Assembly (NCBI RefSeq): GCF_014284235.1
Contig: NZ_JACOGD010000001.1
Location: 248,001-312,000, forward strand
DNA from: Cognatundibacterium curvum
GTDB taxonomy: Bacteria; Pseudomonadota; Gammaproteobacteria; Burkholderiales; Burkholderiaceae_D
DNA: 64,000 nucleotides
Reading direction: 5' to 3'
The notes under the pieces were generated by a model, which saw nothing but the letters and a program-made list of their open reading frames with translations, was not told the DNA's origin and ran no database searches. This document shows positions 7,018-18,941 of the stretch, piece after piece. The position numbers and the translations under genes were made by a program. How positions within the stretch are numbered: position 1 is the first letter of the stretch; each line of letters begins with the position of its first letter.

Positions 7018-8796
<1,779 letters not shown>

Positions 8797-8830
8797 CTAA
8801 AAACGCTGGAAAAGACTGGGAAAATGGTGA

Positions 8831-9109
8831 TCAGAGATCGCCGATTACGCCTTTTTTGTCGAAGCAAGCTTTAGCGCTGACCGCTTTAAAGCCATGACCT
8901 TTGCATTCATTTTGACCCTTGCACGCATGTTCAGCAGTTTTACAATCGCTGTTTCCTTTGCAGTCGTGGATGTTGTAGCAATGCACGGTGTCGTTGGCAG
9001 CTATAGCTTTGCCTGATGCGCCCTTAGGTGCATCAGCGGCGCCGGCAACACCGGCTAAAGCGAAGGCAGTGGCAGCGAGCAAGAAAGCGGAAGAGGTCTT
9101 AACGGACAT
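8831..9109 (-). CDS. Bufferin-type (BufA2-like) periplasmic copper RiPP precursor
   Basis: A 92-residue secreted peptide. Residues 1 to about 24 are a Sec signal peptide (LAGVAGA before the cleavage site). The mature part has six cysteines (44, 50, 56, 63, 69, 82) in CKG/CK-spaced repeats: HDCKGNSDCKTAEHACKGQ, then NECKGHGF and KACFDKKG. This pattern is that of bufferins, whose Cys residues are converted by a DUF692/DUF2063 enzyme pair and which bind copper in the periplasm. The downstream gene encodes both enzyme parts fused, which supports the call. A good AGGAGA site precedes the ATG. The DoxX-like BufD gene often found in such loci is absent. Copper as the ligand is inferred from the family. 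Confidence 0.85.
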   Translation of the reverse strand: MSVKTSSAFLLAATAFALAGVAGAADAPKGASGKAIAANDTVHCYNIHDCKGNSDCKTAEHACKGQNECKGHGFKAVSAKACFDKKGVIGDL

Positions 9110-9933: not shown

Positions 9934-10478
9934 TTCATGTCTCCTAAAGAATTTCTGTTATGAGTTGCAACCTTAACTGGAGAGAGGCTGCCGCTTTAGA
10001 AGCTAACCTGATCGTATGTGCAAGTCAAAGGGTAAACCGCGTTATGTTGTTTATTGGATTAAGTTTAAAGTAACAGTGTTTCCGTATAAAATTTATTTAT
10101 GTATGCCAACGGTAAAGCGTGTGCGCCTGGCAGGATGAAGGCAATTAGAAATCTGTGTTGTTTGTTTTCAGTCAGACAGAAAAGAGATCGCCTGCATAGT
10201 TTGTGTTGGCATAAGCCTTCAGAGCGAAAGCCGGCCTTTCCATTCTGGTTATAAGAAAAAGGCAGCTTGAAGGCCGGGCGTTTGCCAACCTGCTTCATCA
10301 GCATAAGTTTGCAGCGCACTGCCAGATCCGAGCGTATTTGTTTTAGCTGAACTGGAAATGCAAGAGGGAAAAGGCTGGCAAGCGACGTAGGCCTGGCAGC
10401 CGGATAGTCTCTGGGAATCTGCATGCCTGGCACCAAGCTTGCGTGTTACCCATACGAGTTTTTTATACATAAAGCAGC
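9934..10478. other. Intergenic stretch without a supported gene
   Basis: Open frames exist on the minus strand (10065-10436 and 10249-10485), but they overlap each other, lack ribosome binding sites and match no family I know. The stretch is the shared upstream region of the secreted protein gene and the DJ-1 operon. Confidence 0.5.
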
Positions 10479-10507
10479 TTGACAAGCATAAATTCCGGGA
10501 TTATTAT
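10479..10507 (+). promoter_or_regulatory. Strong sigma-70 promoter P1 upstream of the DJ-1/tehA operon
   Basis: A consensus TTGACA (10479-10484), a spacer of exactly 17 bp, then TATTAT (10502-10507). The predicted start of transcription falls inside the operator 10511-10526. No convincing gene lies in the 363 bp before the DJ-1 gene, so P1 makes either a long leader or an untranslated RNA. Confidence 0.75.
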
Positions 10508-10510
10508 GCC

Positions 10511-10526
10511 TACCAACTAGTCGGAC
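10511..10526 (+). promoter_or_regulatory. TetR-type operator copy 1
   Basis: TACCAACTAGTCGGAC, three bases after the P1 -10 element. It belongs to a set of four sites (10511, 10785, 15174, 17159) that share 11 of 16 positions when put in one orientation. A repressor bound here would cover the transcription start. Confidence 0.7.
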
Positions 10527-10750
10527 GAATGGCTAATGAAAAGTAATGCGTATTAAAGAAATGCATATTGCTTAGATGTGGGCTGCACTCTGGCTGTCAT
10601 CGGGCTGTATTTGTACTGTGTTTGTGTTGTGTATCGCCTGTCCTTCTGGGCAAATCCTGCGCTGTTTAGCCGTTCTGTCAGACAAATTGATAGTCTGAAT
10701 CGGGTGATAGTTCAGGCTCAAGCTCAGATTAGCTTGCGGTGAAACAAGTA

Positions 10751-10778
10751 TTTCGATAACGCGAAATTTTTTTATTAT
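10751..10778 (+). promoter_or_regulatory. Candidate second promoter P2 of the DJ-1/tehA operon
   Basis: TATTAT (10773-10778) with a weak -35 (TTTCGA, 10751-10756, 16-bp spacer). It is followed six bases later by operator copy 2. It would give a leader of about 85 nt for the DJ-1 gene. Confidence 0.45.
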
Positions 10779-10784
10779 AGAATC

Positions 10785-10800
10785 GACCGATTAGTTGGTA
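10785..10800 (-). promoter_or_regulatory. TetR-type operator copy 2
   Basis: Read on the minus strand the site is TACCAACTAATCGGTC, differing from copy 1 at two positions. It lies directly behind the P2 -10 element and 70 bp before the DJ-1 start codon. Confidence 0.7.
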
Positions 10801-10870
10801 AAGCAAGGTCTTGTGGCGAGCTGTTACTGACTTCTGCTCTTAATTATTTCAATTTTCAAAAGGAAATACC

Positions 10871-11575
10871 ATGAAAGCAACTGGAAACAAACAAAAGCGT
10901 GTACTGCTGGTGATGAGCTCACTCGACGAAATGGGCATCAGCGGTAAGCATACCGGTACCTGGTTCACTGAACTGGCCGCACCTTATTACATCCTGACAG
11001 AAGCTGGCTATGAAGTGGTGCTGGCATCTCCTGAAGGTGGCGAAGCGCCTATCGATCTGCTCAGCCATAAGGTTCCTTTCACCACGGAATACACAGAACG
11101 CTTCCTGAAAGATCCGGTCGCGCTGTATGCCGCCCGCAATACCCGCAAATTGCGCAATATCGATTACGACGGCTTCGATGCGCTGTTTGTTCCGGGTGGT
11201 TATGGCCTGCTGTGGGATCTGGCATCGGATTCGCATTTGATCAAGATGATCAAGGAATTCCATGCTGAACAACGTCCTATCGCGATGGTCTGCCACGCAC
11301 CGGCGATTCTGCGTGATGTGAAGAAAGACAATGGCGAGTACCTGGTGAAGGGTGTGAGTCTGACTGGCTTCAAAAACGCCGAAGATGCGGAAATTGAGCT
11401 CGACAAGCACTTGCTGTTCTCGCTGGAAGATGAGCTGAAAAACCGTGGTGCGAACTATGTGAGCAAGGCGAACTGGGAGCCTAACGTGGTAGTGGATGGC
11501 CCGTTGATGACTGGCCAGAGCCCGGCTTCTGCGGCACCTTTGGCACAGGCACTGGCTGAGCGTCTGAAAGCTTAA
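10871..11575 (+). CDS. DJ-1/PfpI family protein, Hsp31/glyoxalase III-like
   Basis: A 234-residue cytoplasmic protein of the type 1 glutamine amidotransferase-like fold. The nucleophile elbow AMVCHAPAIL carries the reactive Cys141, and the partner Glu34 is in TGTWFTELAAPY, as in the Hsp31/HchA branch. Such proteins detoxify methylglyoxal as glutathione-independent glyoxalases or act as deglycase/chaperone-type stress proteins. It is first in an operon with tehA, a secreted cupin, an SDR and a flavoprotein, under two operator-bearing promoters. This suggests a reactive-carbonyl or electrophile stress role. AAAGGAAA precedes the ATG. Confidence 0.88.
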   Translation: MKATGNKQKRVLLVMSSLDEMGISGKHTGTWFTELAAPYYILTEAGYEVVLASPEGGEAPIDLLSHKVPFTTEYTERFLKDPVALYAARNTRKLRNIDYDGFDALFVPGGYGLLWDLASDSHLIKMIKEFHAEQRPIAMVCHAPAILRDVKKDNGEYLVKGVSLTGFKNAEDAEIELDKHLLFSLEDELKNRGANYVSKANWEPNVVVDGPLMTGQSPASAAPLAQALAERLKA

Positions 11576-11602
11576 GCGCATCACTGACTCACAGTAAGAC
11601 TG

Positions 11603-11636
11603 ATCCCGGATCTTGGTTTCGACCATGTTCCGGGAT
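11603..11636 (+). other. Intercistronic hairpin with UUCG-type loop
   Basis: ATCCCGGA / TCCGGGAT enclose an inner TGGT-TTCG-ACCA stem-loop between the DJ-1 and tehA genes. No T tract follows directly, so it more likely stabilises or processes mRNA than ends transcription. Confidence 0.5.
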
Positions 11637-11681
11637 TCGGGCAGATACCACAATCCAGATTGATCTGACAGAGGACGCATC

Positions 11682-12722
11682 ATGCATACCAGCCAGCAGC
11701 CTGAACAGCACAAGCAGACTTCGCTGAACATCCGTGTTGAAACAAGTGAGCAGGTTCCTACTTTACCGGTCGCATATTTCGGTATGGCGGTGGGTACTTT
11801 GGCATTTAGCCAGACCTGGCGTGTCGCTGAGCGCGGAATCCGCTTTCCTTGGGCGTTCTCTGCCTATCTGGGTGCAATCGGGCTTGCTATCTGGTCCGTG
11901 CTGTTGCTCGCATATGTCGGTAAATGGCTGTTCCGTACCGATTTGGCTAAACAGGAAATGCAGCATCCTTTGCAATCTTCTTTAGCAGCACTGGGGCCAA
12001 TTTCCAGTCTGCTGGCAGCCATCGTGGTGCAACCGTGGTCCAGAACGCTGGGTTTGCCGATTCTGTTGTTTGCATTGGCATGGCAAACCTTGTTGGGTTT
12101 CTGGATTTATGGACGATTCTGGAAGGGCGGCAGGGTGCCAGACAGTATCTCTGCTGCCATTTATCTGCCAGCGGTTGCGCAGAATTTCGTGGCGGACTTA
12201 GCGGTAACTGCATACGGATGGCAAGAGTTAGGCAGTCTGTTGTTCGGGGCCGGTTTTTTCTCCTGGCTGGCATTGGAATCCATGATAGTCAGCCGGGCCG
12301 CACTGCATGCACCTATCGCGAGTGAACAACGGCCATTGCTGGGCATACAGATGGCACCGGCGGTCGTGGCAGGGTTGACGTACACCAGCCTGCGCCCGGA
12401 AAACGCAGACATGTTCGCGCTGATGTTACTGGGCTATGGCTTATATCAGTTTGCTTTGTTACTGCGGCTGCTGCCTTGGGTTTTGCACCAGGCGTTTGCT
12501 CTGTCTTACTGGTCATTCAGCTTTGGTATTGCAGCCTTGGCCAATCTCGCTTTACGTATCGCAGAACATACACAAACTGAGCTGATGCGCATGTTGTCGT
12601 ATGGATTGCTCACGATAGCAAGCGTGGTGATTCTGAGCCTCTTATCCGGCACGGCCTGCCTGATCTGGCAGCGCAAATTTGTGGTGTTCGTGCACTACGT
12701 TCCTCAACAAAAATCTCATTAA
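11682..12722 (+). CDS. tehA: TehA-family dicarboxylate/tellurite-resistance anion channel
   Basis: A 346-residue inner-membrane protein of about ten helices, homologous to E. coli TehA and the plant SLAC1 anion channel. Characteristic stretches are LPVAYFGMAVGTLAFSQTWR near the N-terminus, IYLPAVAQNFVADLAV, LFGAGFFSWLALE and GIQMAPAVVAGLTY. About 33 extra hydrophilic residues precede the usual start; an internal start is possible, but the first ATG has a GAGG site 11 bp upstream. No tehB methyltransferase gene is adjacent. Family members export anions; the link to tellurite comes from overexpression, so the real substrate here is open. It sits second in the DJ-1 operon. Confidence 0.9.
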   Translation: MHTSQQPEQHKQTSLNIRVETSEQVPTLPVAYFGMAVGTLAFSQTWRVAERGIRFPWAFSAYLGAIGLAIWSVLLLAYVGKWLFRTDLAKQEMQHPLQSSLAALGPISSLLAAIVVQPWSRTLGLPILLFALAWQTLLGFWIYGRFWKGGRVPDSISAAIYLPAVAQNFVADLAVTAYGWQELGSLLFGAGFFSWLALESMIVSRAALHAPIASEQRPLLGIQMAPAVVAGLTYTSLRPENADMFALMLLGYGLYQFALLLRLLPWVLHQAFALSYWSFSFGIAALANLALRIAEHTQTELMRMLSYGLLTIASVVILSLLSGTACLIWQRKFVVFVHYVPQQKSH

Positions 12723-12746
12723 ATTTGTATCTTCTTAAAGGAGTAA

Positions 12747-13214
12747 ATGATGTCGGTCTTAACTAGAGTTACAACAACTTCAGCAGCCAAAAAATTAGTC
12801 ACTGCACTCATGGGTGCCTTAGTCATGACAACAGCCAGTGCCGCAACTGCTGCATCCGGCGACATGTTGATCAAGCCGTTTGAGCAATTGCAATTCTCTG
12901 AAAAAGTGCCAGGCAATCCGCAGATTTCACCGGTCAAGGGCATTCCCGAAACCCAGCCGTCTTCGATCGTAATGAAAATGGGGCGTGGTGCTTTTCCTCT
13001 GCATACGCATACTGCGAATTATCAGCTGGTCGTGATTAAAGGCATCATGAAACACTGGGATGAAAAAGGCAGTCAGAAATCTGCACCGAAAATGGGGCCG
13101 GGCAGTTACTGGTACCAGCCGGCGGGTCAGGTGCATGGTGATGCATGTGAGAGTAACGAGTGCGTCTGGTTTATTACATTTGACGGACCAAGGGACTTCG
13201 CTGTTCAGCAGTAA
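12747..13214 (+). CDS. Secreted single-domain cupin (DUF4437-like)
   Basis: A 155-residue protein with a long signal peptide (residues about 15-36, cut near ATAAS). A cupin barrel follows: metal-type motif FPLHTHTANYQLVVIKG in motif 1 and GPGSYWYQPAGQVHGDAC in motif 2. Two Cys (DACESNEC) sit next to the second motif. Likely periplasmic; function unknown. Either ATG at 12747 or 12750 could be used, with AAAGGAG just upstream. It lies 24 bp behind tehA, so co-transcription is expected. Confidence 0.82.
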   Translation: MMSVLTRVTTTSAAKKLVTALMGALVMTTASAATAASGDMLIKPFEQLQFSEKVPGNPQISPVKGIPETQPSSIVMKMGRGAFPLHTHTANYQLVVIKGIMKHWDEKGSQKSAPKMGPGSYWYQPAGQVHGDACESNECVWFITFDGPRDFAVQQ

Positions 13215-13224
13215 CTATCAGTCA

Positions 13225-13261
13225 GGATGTCGGGAAGAATGCAGCAGATTTCCCGACATCC
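13225..13261 (+). other. Strong hairpin between cupin and SDR genes
   Basis: A perfect 12-bp stem (GGATGTCGGGAA / TTCCCGACATCC) with a 13-base loop lies in the 79-bp gap. There is no T tract behind it. It could attenuate or protect the upstream mRNA part. Confidence 0.6.
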
Positions 13262-13293
13262 GGATACCAATCTTCATTGATGGCAGACATATC

Positions 13294-14010
13294 ATGGACA
13301 CAAAAAAAACTGAGCAGACGCTTGCCGATAAGCCGCGCAGTATCCTGATCGCAGGTTACAGCGCAGGCTTAGGCAGCGCTCTGGAACGCCGCTTTGCACA
13401 AGCGGGTTATGAAATCATTACCGTAGCACGTCAGCATGGGGCAACAATACATTGCGATCTGACTGATGCCGAAGCAAGTGCAGAATTATTTGCCAGACTG
13501 GATCAGACATCCGCGCCTTTAGCCGGTGTGATCCATAATGCGATGGAATTTTTACGCCTGCCATTGCTGGAGACTTCAACACAGCAGATGGAGTCGGTCT
13601 GGCGTTCCATGGTCTTGACTGCTTTTAATCTGACACAACAGGCGGTACCCCGTCTGATACAGCAAGGTGGTGGCAGTATGCTGTTTTCAGGAGCCTCCGG
13701 AAGCTTGCGTGCTGGAGCAGGATTTGCCGCATTCAGTTCAGCTAAATTTGCCTTACGCGGCCTGGTGCAGGCCTTGGCGCGCGAACATGGACAGGACGGC
13801 ATACATGCAGCCCATATCGTGATCGATGGCCTGATACGGACAGAAAAAACAGCGATCCGGTTTGCTGATGCCAGGCCCGCCAGCATGATAGATCCGGATG
13901 CACTGGCAGACCAGTATTTTCAACTGTTTCATCAGGCGCCCAGTGTGTGGTCTCAGGAAATTGATATACGGCCACAAGACACAAGACAGCAACAGGGAGT
14001 ACGGTCATGA
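13294..14010 (+). CDS. Atypical short-chain dehydrogenase/reductase (Tyr replaced by Phe)
   Basis: A 238-residue SDR with an N-terminal Rossmann fold (LIAGYSAGLGSALERRF, an altered TGxxxGxG motif) and HNAMEF in place of NNAG. The active-site region reads GFAAFSSAKFALRGL. The normal YxxxK tetrad Tyr is Phe147 while Lys151 is kept. A subgroup of SDRs with GFAAF...AK and HVVIDG-like ends shares this change, so it is a family trait rather than decay. Activity is uncertain. The start at 13294 gives the usual length; longer frames upstream are not SDR-like. It overlaps the next gene by 4 bp (ATGA), so translation is coupled to the flavoprotein. Confidence 0.85.
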   Translation: MDTKKTEQTLADKPRSILIAGYSAGLGSALERRFAQAGYEIITVARQHGATIHCDLTDAEASAELFARLDQTSAPLAGVIHNAMEFLRLPLLETSTQQMESVWRSMVLTAFNLTQQAVPRLIQQGGGSMLFSGASGSLRAGAGFAAFSSAKFALRGLVQALAREHGQDGIHAAHIVIDGLIRTEKTAIRFADARPASMIDPDALADQYFQLFHQAPSVWSQEIDIRPQDTRQQQGVRS

Positions 14011-15113
14011 ATCAGCCTGTCGTGATTATTGGTGCTGGCCTTAGTGGCTTATACGCAGCACGCCAGCTCTCTGCAGCAGGGCGAGAAGTGATCCTGGTCG
14101 AAGCGCGTGACCGTCTTGGCGGGCGTGTGCTATCAGGGAAAAGTGATGAGTCAGCAGCATGCTGTGATCTTGGGCCGACCTGGTTCTGGCCACAATGGAA
14201 TCCCCGTATCAATGCTTTGATACGGGAATCGGGTATCGCGACTTTTCCGCAATATCAGACGGGTGCCGATACGATAGAGTTGCGTAACGGTGAGGTATTT
14301 CAGCAAAAAAAAGATCCGCGTTATGCCGTCGACTCGAAGCGCGTGCGCGGAGGGATGGCAGCCTTGATTCAATACCTGAGCAGCGGCTTGCATGATGTCT
14401 CTGTGTTGCTCAACTCCTCTGTCACTGCCATGCACTTGCAAGAGGATGCCAGCATTGTTCTGACACTGGATCAACACGGAATTTCTGCTCAGCTGACTGC
14501 TGCGGAGGTAATCAGTACCATACCGCCAAGGTTGTTGGCACAATCTGTCAATGCTGACCCACCCTGGCCAGCCACGACGGTCAGCGCCTGGAAACATACG
14601 CCAACCTGGATGGCGCCGCATGCTAAATTTGTCGCTTGCTATGCGCAGCCATTTTGGCGTGAGGCCGGATTGTCAGGCGATGCGATGAGTGAAATCGGGC
14701 CGCTGAGCGAGATGCATGATGCTTCTGACAGCACTTATGCCTTATTTGGTTTTATCGGCTTGTCCATTTTTCAGCGCGCCAGACTGGGTGAGCAACAACT
14801 GAGCAATCTGGCTTTACAGCAACTGGCACGCATTTATGGTGAGGCAGCCTTAAAGCCAAGCGCCACCTACCTTAAGGATTGGACAGCGGATGTATGGACG
14901 GCGACGCCATTAGATGCCACGGCTTTGCGTTCACATCCGGTCTACCAGAGCCCGGAATTGCCGGCTCCCTGGCAAAATCGCTTATTCCTGGCGGGTGCAG
15001 AATTTGCGCCTACCCATGGTGGATTTTTGGAGGGAGCGCTGGAATCGGCCGAAAATGCAGTCGCTCAACTGCTCATCAAAAACATGAACTATACCCAGAC
15101 CGTGATCGTTTAA
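14007..15113 (+). CDS. FAD-dependent amine oxidase-like protein
   Basis: A 368-residue flavoprotein of the monoamine oxidase/phytoene desaturase superfamily. The N-terminal dinucleotide fold is VVIIGAGLSGLYAARQL, followed by the GG motif LVEARDRLGGRV. The C-terminal FAD motif is LFLAGAEFAPTHGGFLEGALESAENA. It is somewhat short for the family (usually 420-500). The substrate is unknown. It is last in the DJ-1/tehA operon and translationally coupled to the SDR, so the two may act on the same compound. There is no signal peptide, so it is cytoplasmic. Confidence 0.87.
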   Translation: MNQPVVIIGAGLSGLYAARQLSAAGREVILVEARDRLGGRVLSGKSDESAACCDLGPTWFWPQWNPRINALIRESGIATFPQYQTGADTIELRNGEVFQQKKDPRYAVDSKRVRGGMAALIQYLSSGLHDVSVLLNSSVTAMHLQEDASIVLTLDQHGISAQLTAAEVISTIPPRLLAQSVNADPPWPATTVSAWKHTPTWMAPHAKFVACYAQPFWREAGLSGDAMSEIGPLSEMHDASDSTYALFGFIGLSIFQRARLGEQQLSNLALQQLARIYGEAALKPSATYLKDWTADVWTATPLDATALRSHPVYQSPELPAPWQNRLFLAGAEFAPTHGGFLEGALESAENAVAQLLIKNMNYTQTVIV

Positions 15114-15173
15114 AACTGTCGATGAAGAGTTGTCCGGGTGCAAAAAGCGCCGTTTTTTTTTAATCTATATAAC

Positions 15174-15193
15174 TACCGATTACTTGGTATAAT
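15174..15193 (+). promoter_or_regulatory. TetR-type operator copy 3 overlapping a perfect -10 element
   Basis: The 16-bp operator (15174-15189) reads TACCAAGTAATCGGTA on the minus strand and runs into a perfect TATAAT (15188-15193). The predicted transcript starts near 15200, only about three bases before the ATG of the cupin gene. The mRNA would therefore be practically leaderless. The -35 region is poor. Confidence 0.65.
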
Positions 15194-15202
15194 TGACTTA
15201 TT

Positions 15203-15871
15203 ATGAAATTACATGCTGATCTTTCTATTCGTGCAGTAGTGCAAACTGCGCTTCTGCCCTGGGTCGACTCCCCGGTCAACGGCGTACAGCGTAAGCTGAT
15301 TGAACGTGACGGGGAAGAGGTCGCACGTGCCACCAGCCTGGTCAGATACGCCGCTGGTATGCAGTTTTTCAGCCACGACCATGAGCTGGGCGAGGAGTTT
15401 CTGGTGCTGGAAGGCGACTTTAACGATGAATACGGCAGCTACGGGCCAGGTACCTACGTTAAGAATCCTCCTGGCTCCAGACACACGCCGTACACGGTGA
15501 ATGGCTGCACTATTCTGGTTAAATTGCGTCATATGGATAAGCGGGACTTGATACGTACCGTGATCGATACCACGACCGCTGCCTGGCATGCTGGTACTGT
15601 CCCCGGTCTGTCGGTCTTGCCTTTGTCTGAATTTGAAACGACGCATACTGCCTTGGTACGTTGGGCACCTGGCACCCAATTCAAACCACACCGTCATTTC
15701 GGTGGGGAAGAGATCTTCGTACTGGAAGGCGTATTTCAGGATGAGTCCGGAGATTATCCGGCCGGAACCTGGATCAGAAGTCCTCATTTAAGTACACACA
15801 CACCTTACAGCGAACAAGGTTGTCTGATTCTGGTTAAAATCGGACACTTGTCAGCGACAGATAACCCTTAA
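15203..15871 (+). CDS. Tandem-cupin protein (ChrR-cupin-like)
   Basis: A 222-residue cytoplasmic protein made of two similar cupin domains (about 10-112 and 118-218). Each has the metal-binding pattern: FSHDHELGEEFLVLEG and later GSRHTPY in the first, FKPHRHFGGEEIFVLEG and STHTPY in the second. This matches the cupin module of ChrR-type anti-sigma factors but without their zinc-binding N-terminal domain, so it is not an anti-sigma factor. The start agrees with the family (MKLHADLS then LPWVDSPVNGVQRK). No Shine-Dalgarno sequence is present, which fits the leaderless promoter. Six bases separate it from the TetR gene. The ligand or reaction is unknown. Confidence 0.85.
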   Translation: MKLHADLSIRAVVQTALLPWVDSPVNGVQRKLIERDGEEVARATSLVRYAAGMQFFSHDHELGEEFLVLEGDFNDEYGSYGPGTYVKNPPGSRHTPYTVNGCTILVKLRHMDKRDLIRTVIDTTTAAWHAGTVPGLSVLPLSEFETTHTALVRWAPGTQFKPHRHFGGEEIFVLEGVFQDESGDYPAGTWIRSPHLSTHTPYSEQGCLILVKIGHLSATDNP

Positions 15872-15877
15872 AATTCT

Positions 15878-16465
15878 ATGAAACATTTTTCAGAAATTTC
15901 GGCGACTGCCGAGCGTGTGGTGGATGCAGCCGAAGGGCTGATCCAGGCACGTGGCTATAACGGATTTTCTTATGACGACGTAGCCCGGCTGGTCGGTATT
16001 AAAAAGCCCAGCATACATCATCACTTTGCAACCAAAAGCGAGCTGGCAGCCGTCGTCGCACAACGTTATACACATCGGTTTAAAGAGCTATTGCTGCAGA
16101 TAGAAGGGAGCAGCGTCAAGGCTGCTGAACGCTTGTCCGCCTATGCCGCATTGTTTGAAAAAACGTTTAGCACAGACAAGCATTTATGCGTTTGTGGCAT
16201 GCTGGGCGCCGAGTCCAGTTCTTTGCCCGAGATTGTGAATCATGAGGTGCAACGGTTTTTCGATGCGAATCTGGACTGGCTGACGCAGATTGCTGATGAT
16301 GGTCAGCGTGCCGGTCAACTGACGTCTAAGCTCAGCCCGCAAAGCATTGCTGAGACTTATCTCTCATTGCTCGAAGGGGCGATGGTGGTCGGCCGTGGCA
16401 TGCAAAAAGCAAGTGGGCCCGCCATTGTTGCCGATCATTTCCTGAAAACTCTGACCGTCAATTAA
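15878..16465 (+). CDS. TetR/AcrR-family transcriptional repressor
   Basis: A 195-residue regulator. The N-terminal helix-turn-helix spans residues about 10-58 (FSYDDVARLVGIKKPSIHHHFATKSEL). The ligand domain has a CVCGMLGAE motif with Cys104 and Cys106. Many TetR proteins with this motif sit near oxidoreductase genes; NemR of E. coli senses electrophiles through a Cys, so thiol sensing is plausible but unproven here. It is co-transcribed with the tandem cupin from a promoter carrying operator copy 3. It is the best candidate to bind all four sites and to repress itself, the DJ-1/tehA operon and the gene at 16563-17105. Confidence 0.92.
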   Translation: MKHFSEISATAERVVDAAEGLIQARGYNGFSYDDVARLVGIKKPSIHHHFATKSELAAVVAQRYTHRFKELLLQIEGSSVKAAERLSAYAALFEKTFSTDKHLCVCGMLGAESSSLPEIVNHEVQRFFDANLDWLTQIADDGQRAGQLTSKLSPQSIAETYLSLLEGAMVVGRGMQKASGPAIVADHFLKTLTVN

Positions 16466-16492
16466 TTACGCAGTGAATCGTCACATAAGTTT

Positions 16493-16559
16493 GTAGGGAT
16501 TTGTATAGGCGACTATACAGACCCTACGCAAAGCCGGGTATCTGAGTGATGCCCGACTT
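16493..16559. terminator. Paired hairpins between convergent genes
   Basis: The first hairpin (16493-16527) has outer GTAGGG / CCCTAC and inner TGTATAG / CTATACA stems. The second (16531-16559) pairs AAGCCGGGTAT with ATGCCCGACTT with G-T pairs. They separate the TetR gene from the convergent gene and probably end transcription in both directions, although neither has a long T tract. Confidence 0.6.
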
Positions 16560-16562
16560 CGC

Positions 16563-17105
16563 TTATGGCGCAACAGCTGAATTTGTAAATATGTGGATGC
16601 TGTCAAATTGCAGATGGTGCATGAATTCGCGCAGTATCAGCAAACGCATGGCAAAGGCATTGCCTTCAGGTATACCCTCAGCACTGGCCGGTTTTCCTTG
16701 TATTACTGCAGCCAAGCGGCTGAATACACGCTCCATCACATCGATAGGCAACAGCATGTGTTTGCTGTCCGGAATACCTGCAAGCAGTGCAATAGCTTTC
16801 AATTCAGGATTATCAGTGACTAACACACTGTTCTTGTCGATCAAACGGTGCTTACTTATGATTTCGTCCTCGATAGGTTCTATCGCCATTTCAAATTCAC
16901 TGCGTCGTGGCGGCGTATGGCGTAGCAGTTCCCGGGCGGAACGTTCTGCACCGATCTCCAGCTGCAAGAGCATTGTTTCCGGCTTTGCAGTCGCGACCAG
17001 CGTTTGTTCCGCTTGTATGTCGAGCAAAGTCAGTGCAGCAACTTGTTGCAATTGCGTGTGAATTGCCGTGATACGTGTGCGGTAGCTTTCCATTAAATTG
17101 TTCAT
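16563..17105 (-). CDS. Conserved-looking protein of unknown function, probable TetR target
   Basis: I do not recognise this 180-residue soluble protein. It is acidic and mostly helical by composition, with no signal peptide or membrane segment. Possible fingerprints are ERSARELLRHTPPRRSEFEMA, PIEDEIISKHRLI and the C-terminal REFMHHLQFDSIHIF. Its promoter (17174-17202) is a near-consensus sigma-70 element with operator copy 4 over the start point. It therefore belongs to the same regulon as the DJ-1/tehA operon and the cupin-TetR pair. That makes a stress role likely, but no reaction can be assigned. Confidence 0.75.
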   Translation of the reverse strand: MNNLMESYRTRITAIHTQLQQVAALTLLDIQAEQTLVATAKPETMLLQLEIGAERSARELLRHTPPRRSEFEMAIEPIEDEIISKHRLIDKNSVLVTDNPELKAIALLAGIPDSKHMLLPIDVMERVFSRLAAVIQGKPASAEGIPEGNAFAMRLLILREFMHHLQFDSIHIFTNSAVAP

Positions 17106-17158
17106 AAATATCCCATTCTTCGTTCAGCTTAGTGTACTGTTCAGGGTGAATTGATGCA

Positions 17159-17202
17159 GCCCGACTAGTAGGTAGGATAACTTCGGTGGGTACCGCTGTC
17201 AA
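17159..17202 (-). promoter_or_regulatory. Sigma-70 promoter with TetR-type operator copy 4
   Basis: Reading leftward: TTGACA (17197-17202), a 17-bp spacer, TATCCT (17174-17179), then the operator TACCTACTAGTCGGGC (17159-17174). The layout is the same as at promoter P1 (10479). The leader to the ATG at 17105 is about 60 nt. Confidence 0.72.
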
Positions 17203-17290
17203 GGTTTTTTTGGCTAAGCCTAAATGCCAGCTTTACTCAGGTAGTCGTTTGTGCTTTCAAGTTAAGACGGCATAAGCAAAGCAGGGTGGT

Positions 17291-18010
17291 TCAGGTAGCG
17301 ATCCGGCGTGGCAGTAGCCGCTCATATTCTTTTTTGACGACCATATAGCATTCACAGGTACGCTTTTCTAAGCCCGGACGGTCAATTACGGTGATGTGGC
17401 CACGGCTATAGCGTATCAGGCCTGCAGTCTGTAATTTCAATGCAGCTTCAGTCACCCCCTCACGCCTGACGCCCAGCATGTTGGCAATCAGTTCTTGCGT
17501 CATATTCAGATTCACGCTGGACAAGCGATCCAGACTGAGTAATAGCCAGCGGCATAATTGCTTATCCAATGTGTGGTGACGGTTGCAGACAGCAGTCTGT
17601 GCCATCTGCGTAATCAGGGCTTGCGTATACCTTAACAACAGATGTTGCACCGGACCCGCTTTATTGAATGCTTCTTTGATACAACTGGCTGGCAAACGAT
17701 AACCATAGCCTGCACTTTGGACCACGGCACGGCTGGGCGTGGTCTCTCCCCCCATAAATAAAGAGATGCCCACCACGCCTTCATTACCGACCACGGCTAT
17801 TTCTGCTGAGCCGCCGTCCTCCAGTACATACAACAGCGAAACGATAGAAGTAATGGGAAAATACACAAAATTCTGAGTTCCCCCAGATTCGTAGAGCACC
17901 CGCCCCAGCGTCATGTCAAAGTAATCCAGCTTCGGCAGCAAGGTTTCCAATATGGCTGTAGGTATGCAAGCCAATAAGTGATTTTTTTGGATGTCACTCA
18001 GTGTTTTCAT
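17291..18010 (-). CDS. Crp/Fnr-family transcriptional regulator (copy 1)
   Basis: A 239-residue protein with an N-terminal cyclic-nucleotide-binding-like beta barrel (about 15-130; VLYESGGTQNFVYFP) and a C-terminal winged helix (about 155-215; MTQELIANMLGVRREGVTEAA). It lacks the Cys set of FNR, so it is not an oxygen-sensing iron-sulfur protein. The residues that bind cAMP in Crp are not evident. A CECY motif closes the protein. It is a paralog of the next gene upstream, with which it shares length, layout and many residues. Its target genes are unknown; the surrounding genes are general-stress types. Confidence 0.9.
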   Translation of the reverse strand: MKTLSDIQKNHLLACIPTAILETLLPKLDYFDMTLGRVLYESGGTQNFVYFPITSIVSLLYVLEDGGSAEIAVVGNEGVVGISLFMGGETTPSRAVVQSAGYGYRLPASCIKEAFNKAGPVQHLLLRYTQALITQMAQTAVCNRHHTLDKQLCRWLLLSLDRLSSVNLNMTQELIANMLGVRREGVTEAALKLQTAGLIRYSRGHITVIDRPGLEKRTCECYMVVKKEYERLLPRRIAT

Positions 18011-18212
18011 GGTTTTCCTCAGGCTCAGGCTAGCTTCTGATTTAAAGTGAACGCCTCCATGAAATCAGAAAATGAACGGAAAGGAGCCTGTCGTATTATG
18101 CAACTAACCTGGCGATTTATATGTTGGTTAACGCACATAGGACAAGAATTTCATGTGTACTCAGCTTATTCACAATGCCGGTTGCGCTCGGCCTGGGCCT
18201 GGGATTCAGAGC

Positions 18213-18941
18213 TTAGCTCCTATGCCTGATGGCTATCGTTAAGCGTTCATATTCATTTTGGATGATACGATGGCAATCACAGGCTAGTTTTTCCAAACCA
18301 GGCTGATCGGTGATGGTCAGTTTGCCACGGCTGTATTCGATTAGCCCTGAGCGCTGTAAATACCCGGCGATGGCAGTCACCCGCTCCCGCCGTGTGCCCA
18401 GGGTAGTGGCCATGTATTGTTGCGTCACTAATTGTTCTGAAGATCCGCTGTGGCGGCTGTTTTCCAGCAGATAGCGGCATAATTGCTGAAGTAAACTGTG
18501 ATGGATAGTGCAGATGGAGAGTTGTGCCAGCTGCATAATCAGGGTTTGTGTGTAGTGCAATAGTAAGTGCATCAAAGCACCTTGACGATGGAATTCATGC
18601 TTCAGCCGGTCGCCGGGAATACGGTAGGCATAGCCGCAGCATTGCACCTGGGCCGAACACGGAGCGATGTTATCGGCCAGTACCAGTGAGATACCCAGCA
18701 TGCCTTCGGCCCCGATAGTGATGACTTCAGAAAACGCTGGCCCTTTGTTGCTATACATCAAAGCAATGATCGCTGTTGTTGGAAAGTAGGCATAACGTTC
18801 CATTTGACCGCTTTCATAAATCATTTCACCGGGCTCCAGTTTTTTCAGTTCAGCCTGCGCGGTGATACGTATTAACTCATGTTGGGGAAGCGTCTTCAGT
18901 AGCCGGTTTTTGATGGAGGATTGCATAGCTGTGACCCACAT
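18213..18941 (-). CDS. Crp/Fnr-family transcriptional regulator (copy 2)
   Basis: A 242-residue paralog of the regulator at 17291-18010. The sensor barrel includes EMIYESGQMERYAYFP and GAEGMLGISLVLA. The DNA-binding domain includes VTQQYMATTLGTRRERVTAIA, so the recognition helix differs from copy 1 (GTRRERVTA against GVRREGVTE) while the scaffold is alike. The C-terminus has CDCH where copy 1 has CECY. The two genes are separated by 202 bp without a gene. A tandem duplication followed by divergence of DNA specificity is the simplest reading. Confidence 0.9.
   Translation of the reverse strand: MWVTAMQSSIKNRLLKTLPQHELIRITAQAELKKLEPGEMIYESGQMERYAYFPTTAIIALMYSNKGPAFSEVITIGAEGMLGISLVLADNIAPCSAQVQCCGYAYRIPGDRLKHEFHRQGALMHLLLHYTQTLIMQLAQLSICTIHHSLLQQLCRYLLENSRHSGSSEQLVTQQYMATTLGTRRERVTAIAGYLQRSGLIEYSRGKLTITDQPGLEKLACDCHRIIQNEYERLTIAIRHRS

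Follow-up and report, generated by a model that had tools for sequence, protein, structure and literature searches.

The window analyzed here, a stretch of 64,000 nucleotides from Cognatundibacterium curvum, carries between positions 10479 and 17202 a gene cluster that is a real, conserved regulon, in which four copies of a palindromic operator accompany genes for a TetR-type repressor, a DJ-1/PfpI protein, a TehA-like transporter, two cupins, an SDR oxidoreductase, a flavin amine-oxidase-like protein, and a predicted lone half of a Ppx/GppA phosphatase (half-Ppx). It is a system like that of AltR, the repressor of the Pantoea alt clusters, with a differing gene set and with the half-Ppx gene as its odd member. 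We consider it likely that an AltR-like thiol switch governs the cluster as a self-contained regulon of electrophile and oxidant defense, with a TetR that probably senses damage via a conserved cysteine.

The four 16-mers are copies of one palindrome (consensus TACCNACTAGTNGGTA) with ACTAGT at its center. An earlier note, made from the sequence alone, had described four such sites agreeing at 11 of 16 positions, and a motif scan of the window recovered all four where that note had placed them, with the same 11 positions out of 16 invariant. Operator 1 (TACCAACTAGTCGGAC, 10511..10526, plus strand) and operator 2 (TACCAACTAATCGGTC, 10785..10800, minus strand) precede the DJ-1 gene, operator 3 (TACCAAGTAATCGGTA, 15174..15189, minus strand) lies upstream of the tandem cupin and TetR genes, and operator 4 (TACCTACTAGTCGGGC, 17159..17174, minus strand) precedes the half-Ppx gene. 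At up to three mismatches, the window held these four operators and no further site. Four or more sites were found in 0 of 100 shuffles, with an expected number of 0.39, a post hoc comparison in that the consensus was derived from the same sites. In the host genome (4,246,954 bases), the search pattern TACCNACTARTCGGTM matched exactly the four operators at up to one mismatch and 9 places (11 strand matches) at up to two mismatches, the remaining 5 places having two mismatches each and all lying inside reading frames. A regulon extending genome-wide beyond the cluster was thus ruled out, and since the genome also encodes a single TetR of this type at an E value of at most 1e-20, the claim that the regulon is self-contained is supported.

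Conservation of the operator near TetR relatives provided an independent test, as opposed to the post hoc count in the window. We took 59 loci with TetR relatives from named records, plus further loci from unnamed relatives, giving 77 distinct TetR rows, and asked for a site at up to two mismatches in the span from 900 bp upstream to 250 bp downstream of tetR; 50 symmetric permuted patterns served as controls. Among the rows with at least 50% identity to the window TetR, 29 of 32 had such a site, compared with 0 for each of the 50 controls; these 32 rows hold two overlapping pairs (L100/L114 and L102/L132), the members of each showing parts of one gene or of nearly identical genes. The site was also found in 3 of 4 rows at 40 to 50% identity (control mean, 0) and in 26 of 41 rows at 25 to 40% identity (control mean, 0.10; largest, 2). 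The nearest named TetR is that of U. crateris (97%), a closeness that suggests an Undibacterium as host, and that of U. jejuense is 84% identical. Both species keep all four operator positions, a pair in front of DJ-1 and single ones in front of the tandem cupin and the minus-strand gene; in U. jejuense, tehA and the small cupin, SDR, and amine oxidase genes are missing from the stretch that separates DJ-1 from the tandem cupin. Among the findings that would refute the regulon, the earlier note had named a lack of the motif upstream of the orthologous operons in related genomes; these two sets of results, the 29 of 32 near rows and the four positions kept in two species, show that the motif is present there. 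In a survey of 43 genomes of the host genus, in which TetR was called by a match at 1e-30, 11 had the TetR, and 10 of these 11 showed the pattern at up to one mismatch, in 9 cases beside tetR. The earlier view of a single TetR regulon is supported, with four operators and three transcription units, namely, DJ-1/tehA/cupin/SDR/amine oxidase, tandem cupin/tetR, and the half-Ppx gene.

The TetR protein (15878..16465, plus strand; PF00440/PF16925) carries the motif Cys104-x-Cys106 and, by alignment and tree, is a relative of AltR, being 38% identical to the Pantoea repressor and 31% to that of Klebsiella. According to parts of the AltR paper (PMC13178969), the P. ananatis repressor acts on its own promoter and on further alt promoters, depends on its box and on Cys100, and is released by thiosulfinates. 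AltR Cys100 aligns with Cys106 of the window TetR, which is invariant in all 19 chosen rows, AltR included. Over the 78 aligned rows, Cys104 was found in 76 and Cys106 in 64, AltR being without a counterpart of Cys104. The earlier note could match the cluster to no described system; judged by sequence comparison, this is not supported, because TetR is a relative of AltR, with a common operator core and sensor cysteine position, and the thiosulfinate-sensing repressor of the Pantoea alt clusters is the best match.

The likeness extends to the operator. Parts of the same 2026 paper describe an altR box, CAATCTAC[N6]GTAGATTG, and a second type, IR2, TTACCAAC[N6]GTTGGTAA, and leave open whether AltR reads both (PMC13178969). 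In both Pantoea regions that we inspected (L093 and L094), the three places matching the published joint consensus each contain an ACTAGT-centered 16-mer. The 16-mers number four per region at up to two mismatches, against a control mean of 0.04 to 0.05, with one more at three. The N6 in the eight outer-repeat matches of the published register read CTACTA, CAACTA, or CAACCA; an additional match in each Pantoea region and both Klebsiella matches have the outer repeat shifted to the opposite side of the core. The AltR boxes hold two overlapping palindromes, of which one is the outer repeat of the paper and the other, offset from it by 2 bp, is the ACTAGT-centered 16-mer shared with the window. 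The simplest reading of these sequences predicts that the two box types are one operator, an ACTAGT-centered palindrome overlapped by a 2-bp-shifted outer repeat, in which the N6 of the paper would be no random spacer.

Eight genes lie between or beside the operators, seven on the plus strand and one, for a 180-amino-acid protein, on the minus strand. The DJ-1/PfpI protein (10871..11575, plus strand; PF01965; PDB 4p5p, 1u9c, and 4lru) resembles the glutathione-independent glyoxalase III/Hsp31 type and, by its similarity to the solved glyoxalase III 4lru (E value, 4e-21), is probably of the glyoxalase III type. It is followed on the plus strand by a TehA-like anion channel or transporter of the SLAC1 family (11682..12722; PF03595), which scored 320 bits with the TehA model NF008032, slightly below the cut-off of 342, and by a small cupin (12747..13214; DUF4437/Cupin_7 in Pfam) with a signal-peptide-like N terminus, as judged by eye, for which a plasmid search returned eight distant records. 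The SDR oxidoreductase (13294..14010, plus strand; PF00106) differs in type from that of the alt clusters and pWW0, neither of which it matched by BLAST at an E value of 1e-3. The flavin amine-oxidase-like protein (14007..15113, plus strand; PF01593) resembles monoamine and putrescine oxidases in the PDB, and the tandem ChrR-type cupin (15203..15871, plus strand) has two PF12973 stretches and matches PDB 3o14 with an E value of 1e-40. This composition supports the earlier view of a gene mix of the electrophile- and oxidant-defense kind.

The earlier note had also placed each operator near a -10 element, and this stood for operators 1 and 4 but could not be confirmed for operators 2 and 3. A promoter-like element, TTGACA-N17-TATTAT (10479..10507, plus strand; 11 of 12 consensus matches), ends 3 bp before operator 1, and another in front of the half-Ppx gene, TTGACA-N17-TATCCT (17174..17202, minus strand; 10 of 12), extends over the first base of operator 4; both are kept in U. 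crateris and U. jejuense, by eye. Operator 2 is covered by a pair of matches on the minus strand (10 of 12) that overlap each other and are directed away from DJ-1. The number of promoter-like matches in positions 10400 to 17300 was nine and not above that in shuffles (mean, 6.5; standard deviation, 2.1), but each of the four strongest overlaps or adjoins an operator, namely, operator 1, 2 (two matches), or 4. Between the two plus-strand operons lies a terminator-like hairpin (15137..15160, plus strand), a consensus match from a scan that as a whole was not above chance, with 6 found versus 7.0 in shuffles. Operators 1 and 2 are separated by 258 bp upstream of DJ-1 (10527-10784); U. crateris and U. 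jejuense have a shorter segment here. Transcription from the strong promoter-like element at 10479 would run through this segment before reaching DJ-1, possibly producing a leader or an RNA.

We propose that, in unstressed cells, a TetR dimer would sit on the four ACTAGT-centered palindromes, over or next to the promoters of the three units, and that the tandem cupin/tetR unit, lying under its own repressor, would be autoregulated. A thiol-reactive oxidant or electrophile would modify Cys106, at the position of AltR Cys100, perhaps together with Cys104, whereupon the modified TetR would leave the DNA and enzymes removing reactive carbonyls and oxidants would be made. DJ-1 may then clear glyoxals, the oxidoreductases and cupins may deal with the oxidant or with products of it, and TehA may move an anion. 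Organosulfur electrophiles, reactive chlorine, quinones, and carbonyls are candidate inducers.

Several observations weigh against this reading. Genome-wide, a reversed control pattern had four matches at up to one mismatch, equal to the operator pattern, and 61 strand matches at up to two mismatches, compared with 11. Because the control is equally or more frequent, the raw number of genome matches is unremarkable and proves nothing alone; it is the clustering and conservation of the operators, rather than their number, that set them above chance, all four lying before genes inside 6.7 kb (rough chance, 1.5e-8). As to conservation, 3 of the 32 near rows failed our site criterion: L022 has a three-mismatch site before its DJ-1 gene, L105 has a stretched site before its cupin gene and a two-mismatch site before its amine oxidase gene, and L024 has no site. 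Within the host genus, two of the genomes with TetR depart from the rule, the pattern of G580 lying on another contig and G589 having no match at up to one mismatch, and 6 of the 32 genomes lacking a TetR match at 1e-30 still show the pattern at up to one mismatch. AltR itself falls outside the 29-row clade (support, 100/99) that contains the TetRs of the window and pWW0, in a tree in which AltR and NemR sit on long branches and are placed tentatively; it is moreover reported, in parts of PMC13178969, not to respond to N-ethylmaleimide, diamide, or H2O2. Owing to both its position outside the clade and this lack of response, the inducer specificity of AltR is not transferable to the window TetR. 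Finally, the alt genes ahpD, dsbA, and gor gave high allicin resistance by themselves.

The same thiol-switch regulon could have reactive chlorine (hypochlorite, chlorite, or chloramines) as its natural signal, as for NemR, instead of organosulfur compounds or carbonyls, which we regard as possible but rather unlikely. NemR, presented in parts of PMC13178969 as a cysteine-dependent sensor of electrophiles and bleach, has its Cys106 at the position of window Cys104, in a weak alignment at 18.6% identity; sections of PMC9751292 place mobile cupins, SDRs, and chlorine-sensing regulators near chlorite dismutase, and DJ-1 as a remover of glyoxals would be compatible with such a signal. None of the 10 proteins scanned, however, matched the chlorite dismutase, methionine sulfoxide reductase, or Rcl families, and the relationship to AltR is closer than that to NemR. 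If, on the other hand, TetR were a classical ligand-binding repressor, AcuR-like or catabolic, an amine or aldehyde metabolite would induce a catabolic operon and the cysteines would be structural. The amine oxidase, SDR, and cupins would fit catabolism, relatives are found on catabolic plasmids (the pWW0 module and the NAH7 TetR), and the acrylate regulator AcuR is the second-best NCBIfam model for the protein, although its 51 bits fall far below the cut-off of 247. A classical ligand becomes improbable in light of the CxC motif, which is nearly invariant over differing gene contexts, of partner genes that vary while SDR, OsmC, and DJ-1 nevertheless recur, and of the AltR-type regulators among the relatives.

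It is also conceivable that another regulator, such as the Crp/Fnr-type proteins encoded at 17291-18941, binds the four sites and that TetR is incidental, given that two Crp-type genes adjoin the regulon, likewise in U. crateris. The motif nevertheless accompanies TetR into distant genomes and into Pseudomonas plasmids without an annotated Crp gene alongside, and we give this explanation hardly any credence. We retain the AltR-like thiol switch as our preferred account of the cluster.

By fold and PDB profile matching, the product of the minus-strand gene (16563..17105), which the earlier note had called an unknown protein, is a Ppx/GppA second lobe that stands by itself. The first lobe is absent from this 180-amino-acid protein, whose alignment begins at residue 113 of 2j4r. 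In a low-identity alignment to E. coli Ppx, the catalytic Glu121 corresponds to Ser7, the GGGSTE phosphate loop to QAEQTL, and Asp143 to Asp29; profile comparison with E. coli Ppx by hhalign gave a weak match (probability, 1). Compared with Ppx/GppA phosphatases, the window protein thus has the second-lobe fold in common, whereas the first lobe, the catalytic glutamate, and the GGGSTE loop are not kept. The gene occurs in 5 of the 43 genus genomes, all five among the 11 with TetR and with the two genes within 2 kb, a co-occurrence with a chance of 5e-4 if the genomes were independent, which they are not. Homologues (P0001-P0120) are scattered in Burkholderiales, in 18 of 300 genomes drawn, and include ones named from Yersinia, among others; one viral contig scan revealed no viral relatives. 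At up to three mismatches, the operator was found at none of 17 half-Ppx loci outside the host genus (3.3 to 3.5 kb each), so that, among the loci examined, the link between operator and half-Ppx is confined to the host genus, and the family occurs in other Burkholderiales without the window operator.

Elsewhere, half-Ppx homologues lie next to an esterase-family gene, resembling one for S-formylglutathione hydrolase, and next to a pirin gene (Pfam) (L156/L151), neighbors that hint at electrophile contexts for the family. Polyphosphate is a protein-protecting chaperone. As a speculation that we think doubtful, half-Ppx might be a stress-induced, noncatalytic decoy lobe that, once TetR has left the DNA, pairs with or competes against full-length Ppx/GppA, blocks hydrolysis, and raises polyphosphate or (p)ppGpp, at the same time as DJ-1, the cupins, and the oxidoreductases remove the electrophile; if so, the sensing of electrophiles would be coupled directly, at the level of transcription and via a pseudo-lobe family, to the turnover of polyphosphate or alarmones. 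Recognition of an uncharacterized protein family as putative lone Ppx/GppA second lobes comes here with a first regulatory context for that family.

Outside the window, a recurrent core was found, operator-tandem cupin-tetR-operator-SDR, at times with OsmC or without the cupin, and genes adjoining related sites include those for OsmC, CMD, SDR, and metallo-beta-lactamase-fold proteins. The motif is not a general repeat: in a sample of 369 genomes from the class, the exact palindrome occurred in 2 and the reversed control in 7. The TOL plasmid pWW0 (L090) carries a sister module, operator-cupin-TetR-operator-SDR-OsmC, a P. aeruginosa AR_0230 plasmid (L092) carries the module beside Tn3-family transposase genes, and on NAH7 (L091) the TetR gene has neither a cupin nor an SDR annotated beside it. 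Part of a pWW0-related paper treats an osmC gene, which is the chromosomal PP0089. Loci L003/L008 and L004 belong with these, and one P. putida assembly encodes the TetR twice. The same TetR protein, collapsed as identical, appears in a Thalassospira-labelled contig, through transfer or contamination. One contig of a metagenome-assembled genome labelled Polaromonas (L022) brings together DJ-1, SDR, amine oxidase, cupin, TehA, and TetR, and another labelled Pseudomonas (L023) brings together OsmC, DJ-1, and TetR, showing that most genes of the cluster belong to a recurring set of variable order.

Plasmid matches of TetR numbered 1656 records, including Pantoea plasmids with alt-type clusters. 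In the two Pantoea alt-type regions, TetR is accompanied by OsmC, glutathione reductase, thioredoxin, a CMD/AhpD-like protein, alkene reductase, DsbA, and SDR, and the SDR and OsmC of the pWW0 module are 62% and 30% identical, respectively, to those of the Pantoea alt cluster. The Klebsiella plasmid p1642-2 (L144) has an alt-like cluster with OsmC, TetR, CMD, thioredoxin, alkene reductase, DsbA, and SDR and with operator-like sites at two to three mismatches. This cluster adjoins IS26 and a Tn3-family transposase gene.

On the flanks of the regulon, the two Crp-type regulator genes (17291-18941) are adjacent to each other on the minus strand, and the pair is kept beside the regulon in U. crateris. 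On the other side, an MbnB/TglH/ChrH-type enzyme of ribosomally synthesized and posttranslationally modified peptides, fused to DUF2063 (7018-9109, minus strand), adjoins a gene whose small, Cys-rich product has no Pfam match; presumably, this locus resembles a bufferin-type copper peptide operon.

Among known systems, NemR of E. coli (nemR-nemA-gloA) resembles the window system in being a cysteine-dependent sensor whose neighbors are a reductase and a glyoxalase gene. Its upstream palindrome (TAGACCGACTGGTCTA, by eye), however, is unlike the window 16-mer, and nemA and gloA are absent from the window; membership in the NemR group was ruled out by the 18.6% identity together with the different palindrome. 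Membership in the AcuR family was rejected on the score of NF051457 (51.3 bits), and ScbR- and CurR-type models likewise scored far below their cut-offs. In Pseudomonas, allicin-resistance regions include osmC, sdr, and tetR, with roles demonstrated for other genes in the parts of PMC7119367 concerned.

The mobile modules come closer. That of pWW0 has a TetR 68% identical to that of the window, and a module of the same type (L003) has a tandem cupin at 65%; as in the window, the pWW0 and P. aeruginosa modules have one operator before the cupin gene, with a second after tetR. They differ in lacking DJ-1, TehA, amine oxidase, and half-Ppx, in being mobile, and in being annotated at the family level only. 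A search confined to one open library returned no description of the window cluster or of half-Ppx, and the main text of a survey of alt clusters (PMC12306174) does not mention cupin, DJ-1, PfpI, tehA, or Undibacterium.

With the AltR/alt system, finally, the window cluster shares a homologous TetR repressor, the position of the putative sensor cysteine (AltR Cys100, window Cys106), an ACTAGT-centered operator core present in several copies before several units, and an autoregulatory arrangement. In contrast, the thioredoxin, alkene reductase, DsbA, AhpD-like, and glutathione reductase genes of the alt clusters are not among the eight genes of the cluster, and the annotation of the two Pantoea regions shows no DJ-1, TehA, cupins, amine oxidase, or half-Ppx. 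Since the characteristic alt genes are missing, we do not file the window cluster as an alt cluster. One operator code and one cysteine position nevertheless tie together scattered, TetR-led stress modules in Undibacterium, on Pseudomonas plasmids, in Tn3-family contexts, in the Pantoea alt clusters, and on a Klebsiella plasmid.

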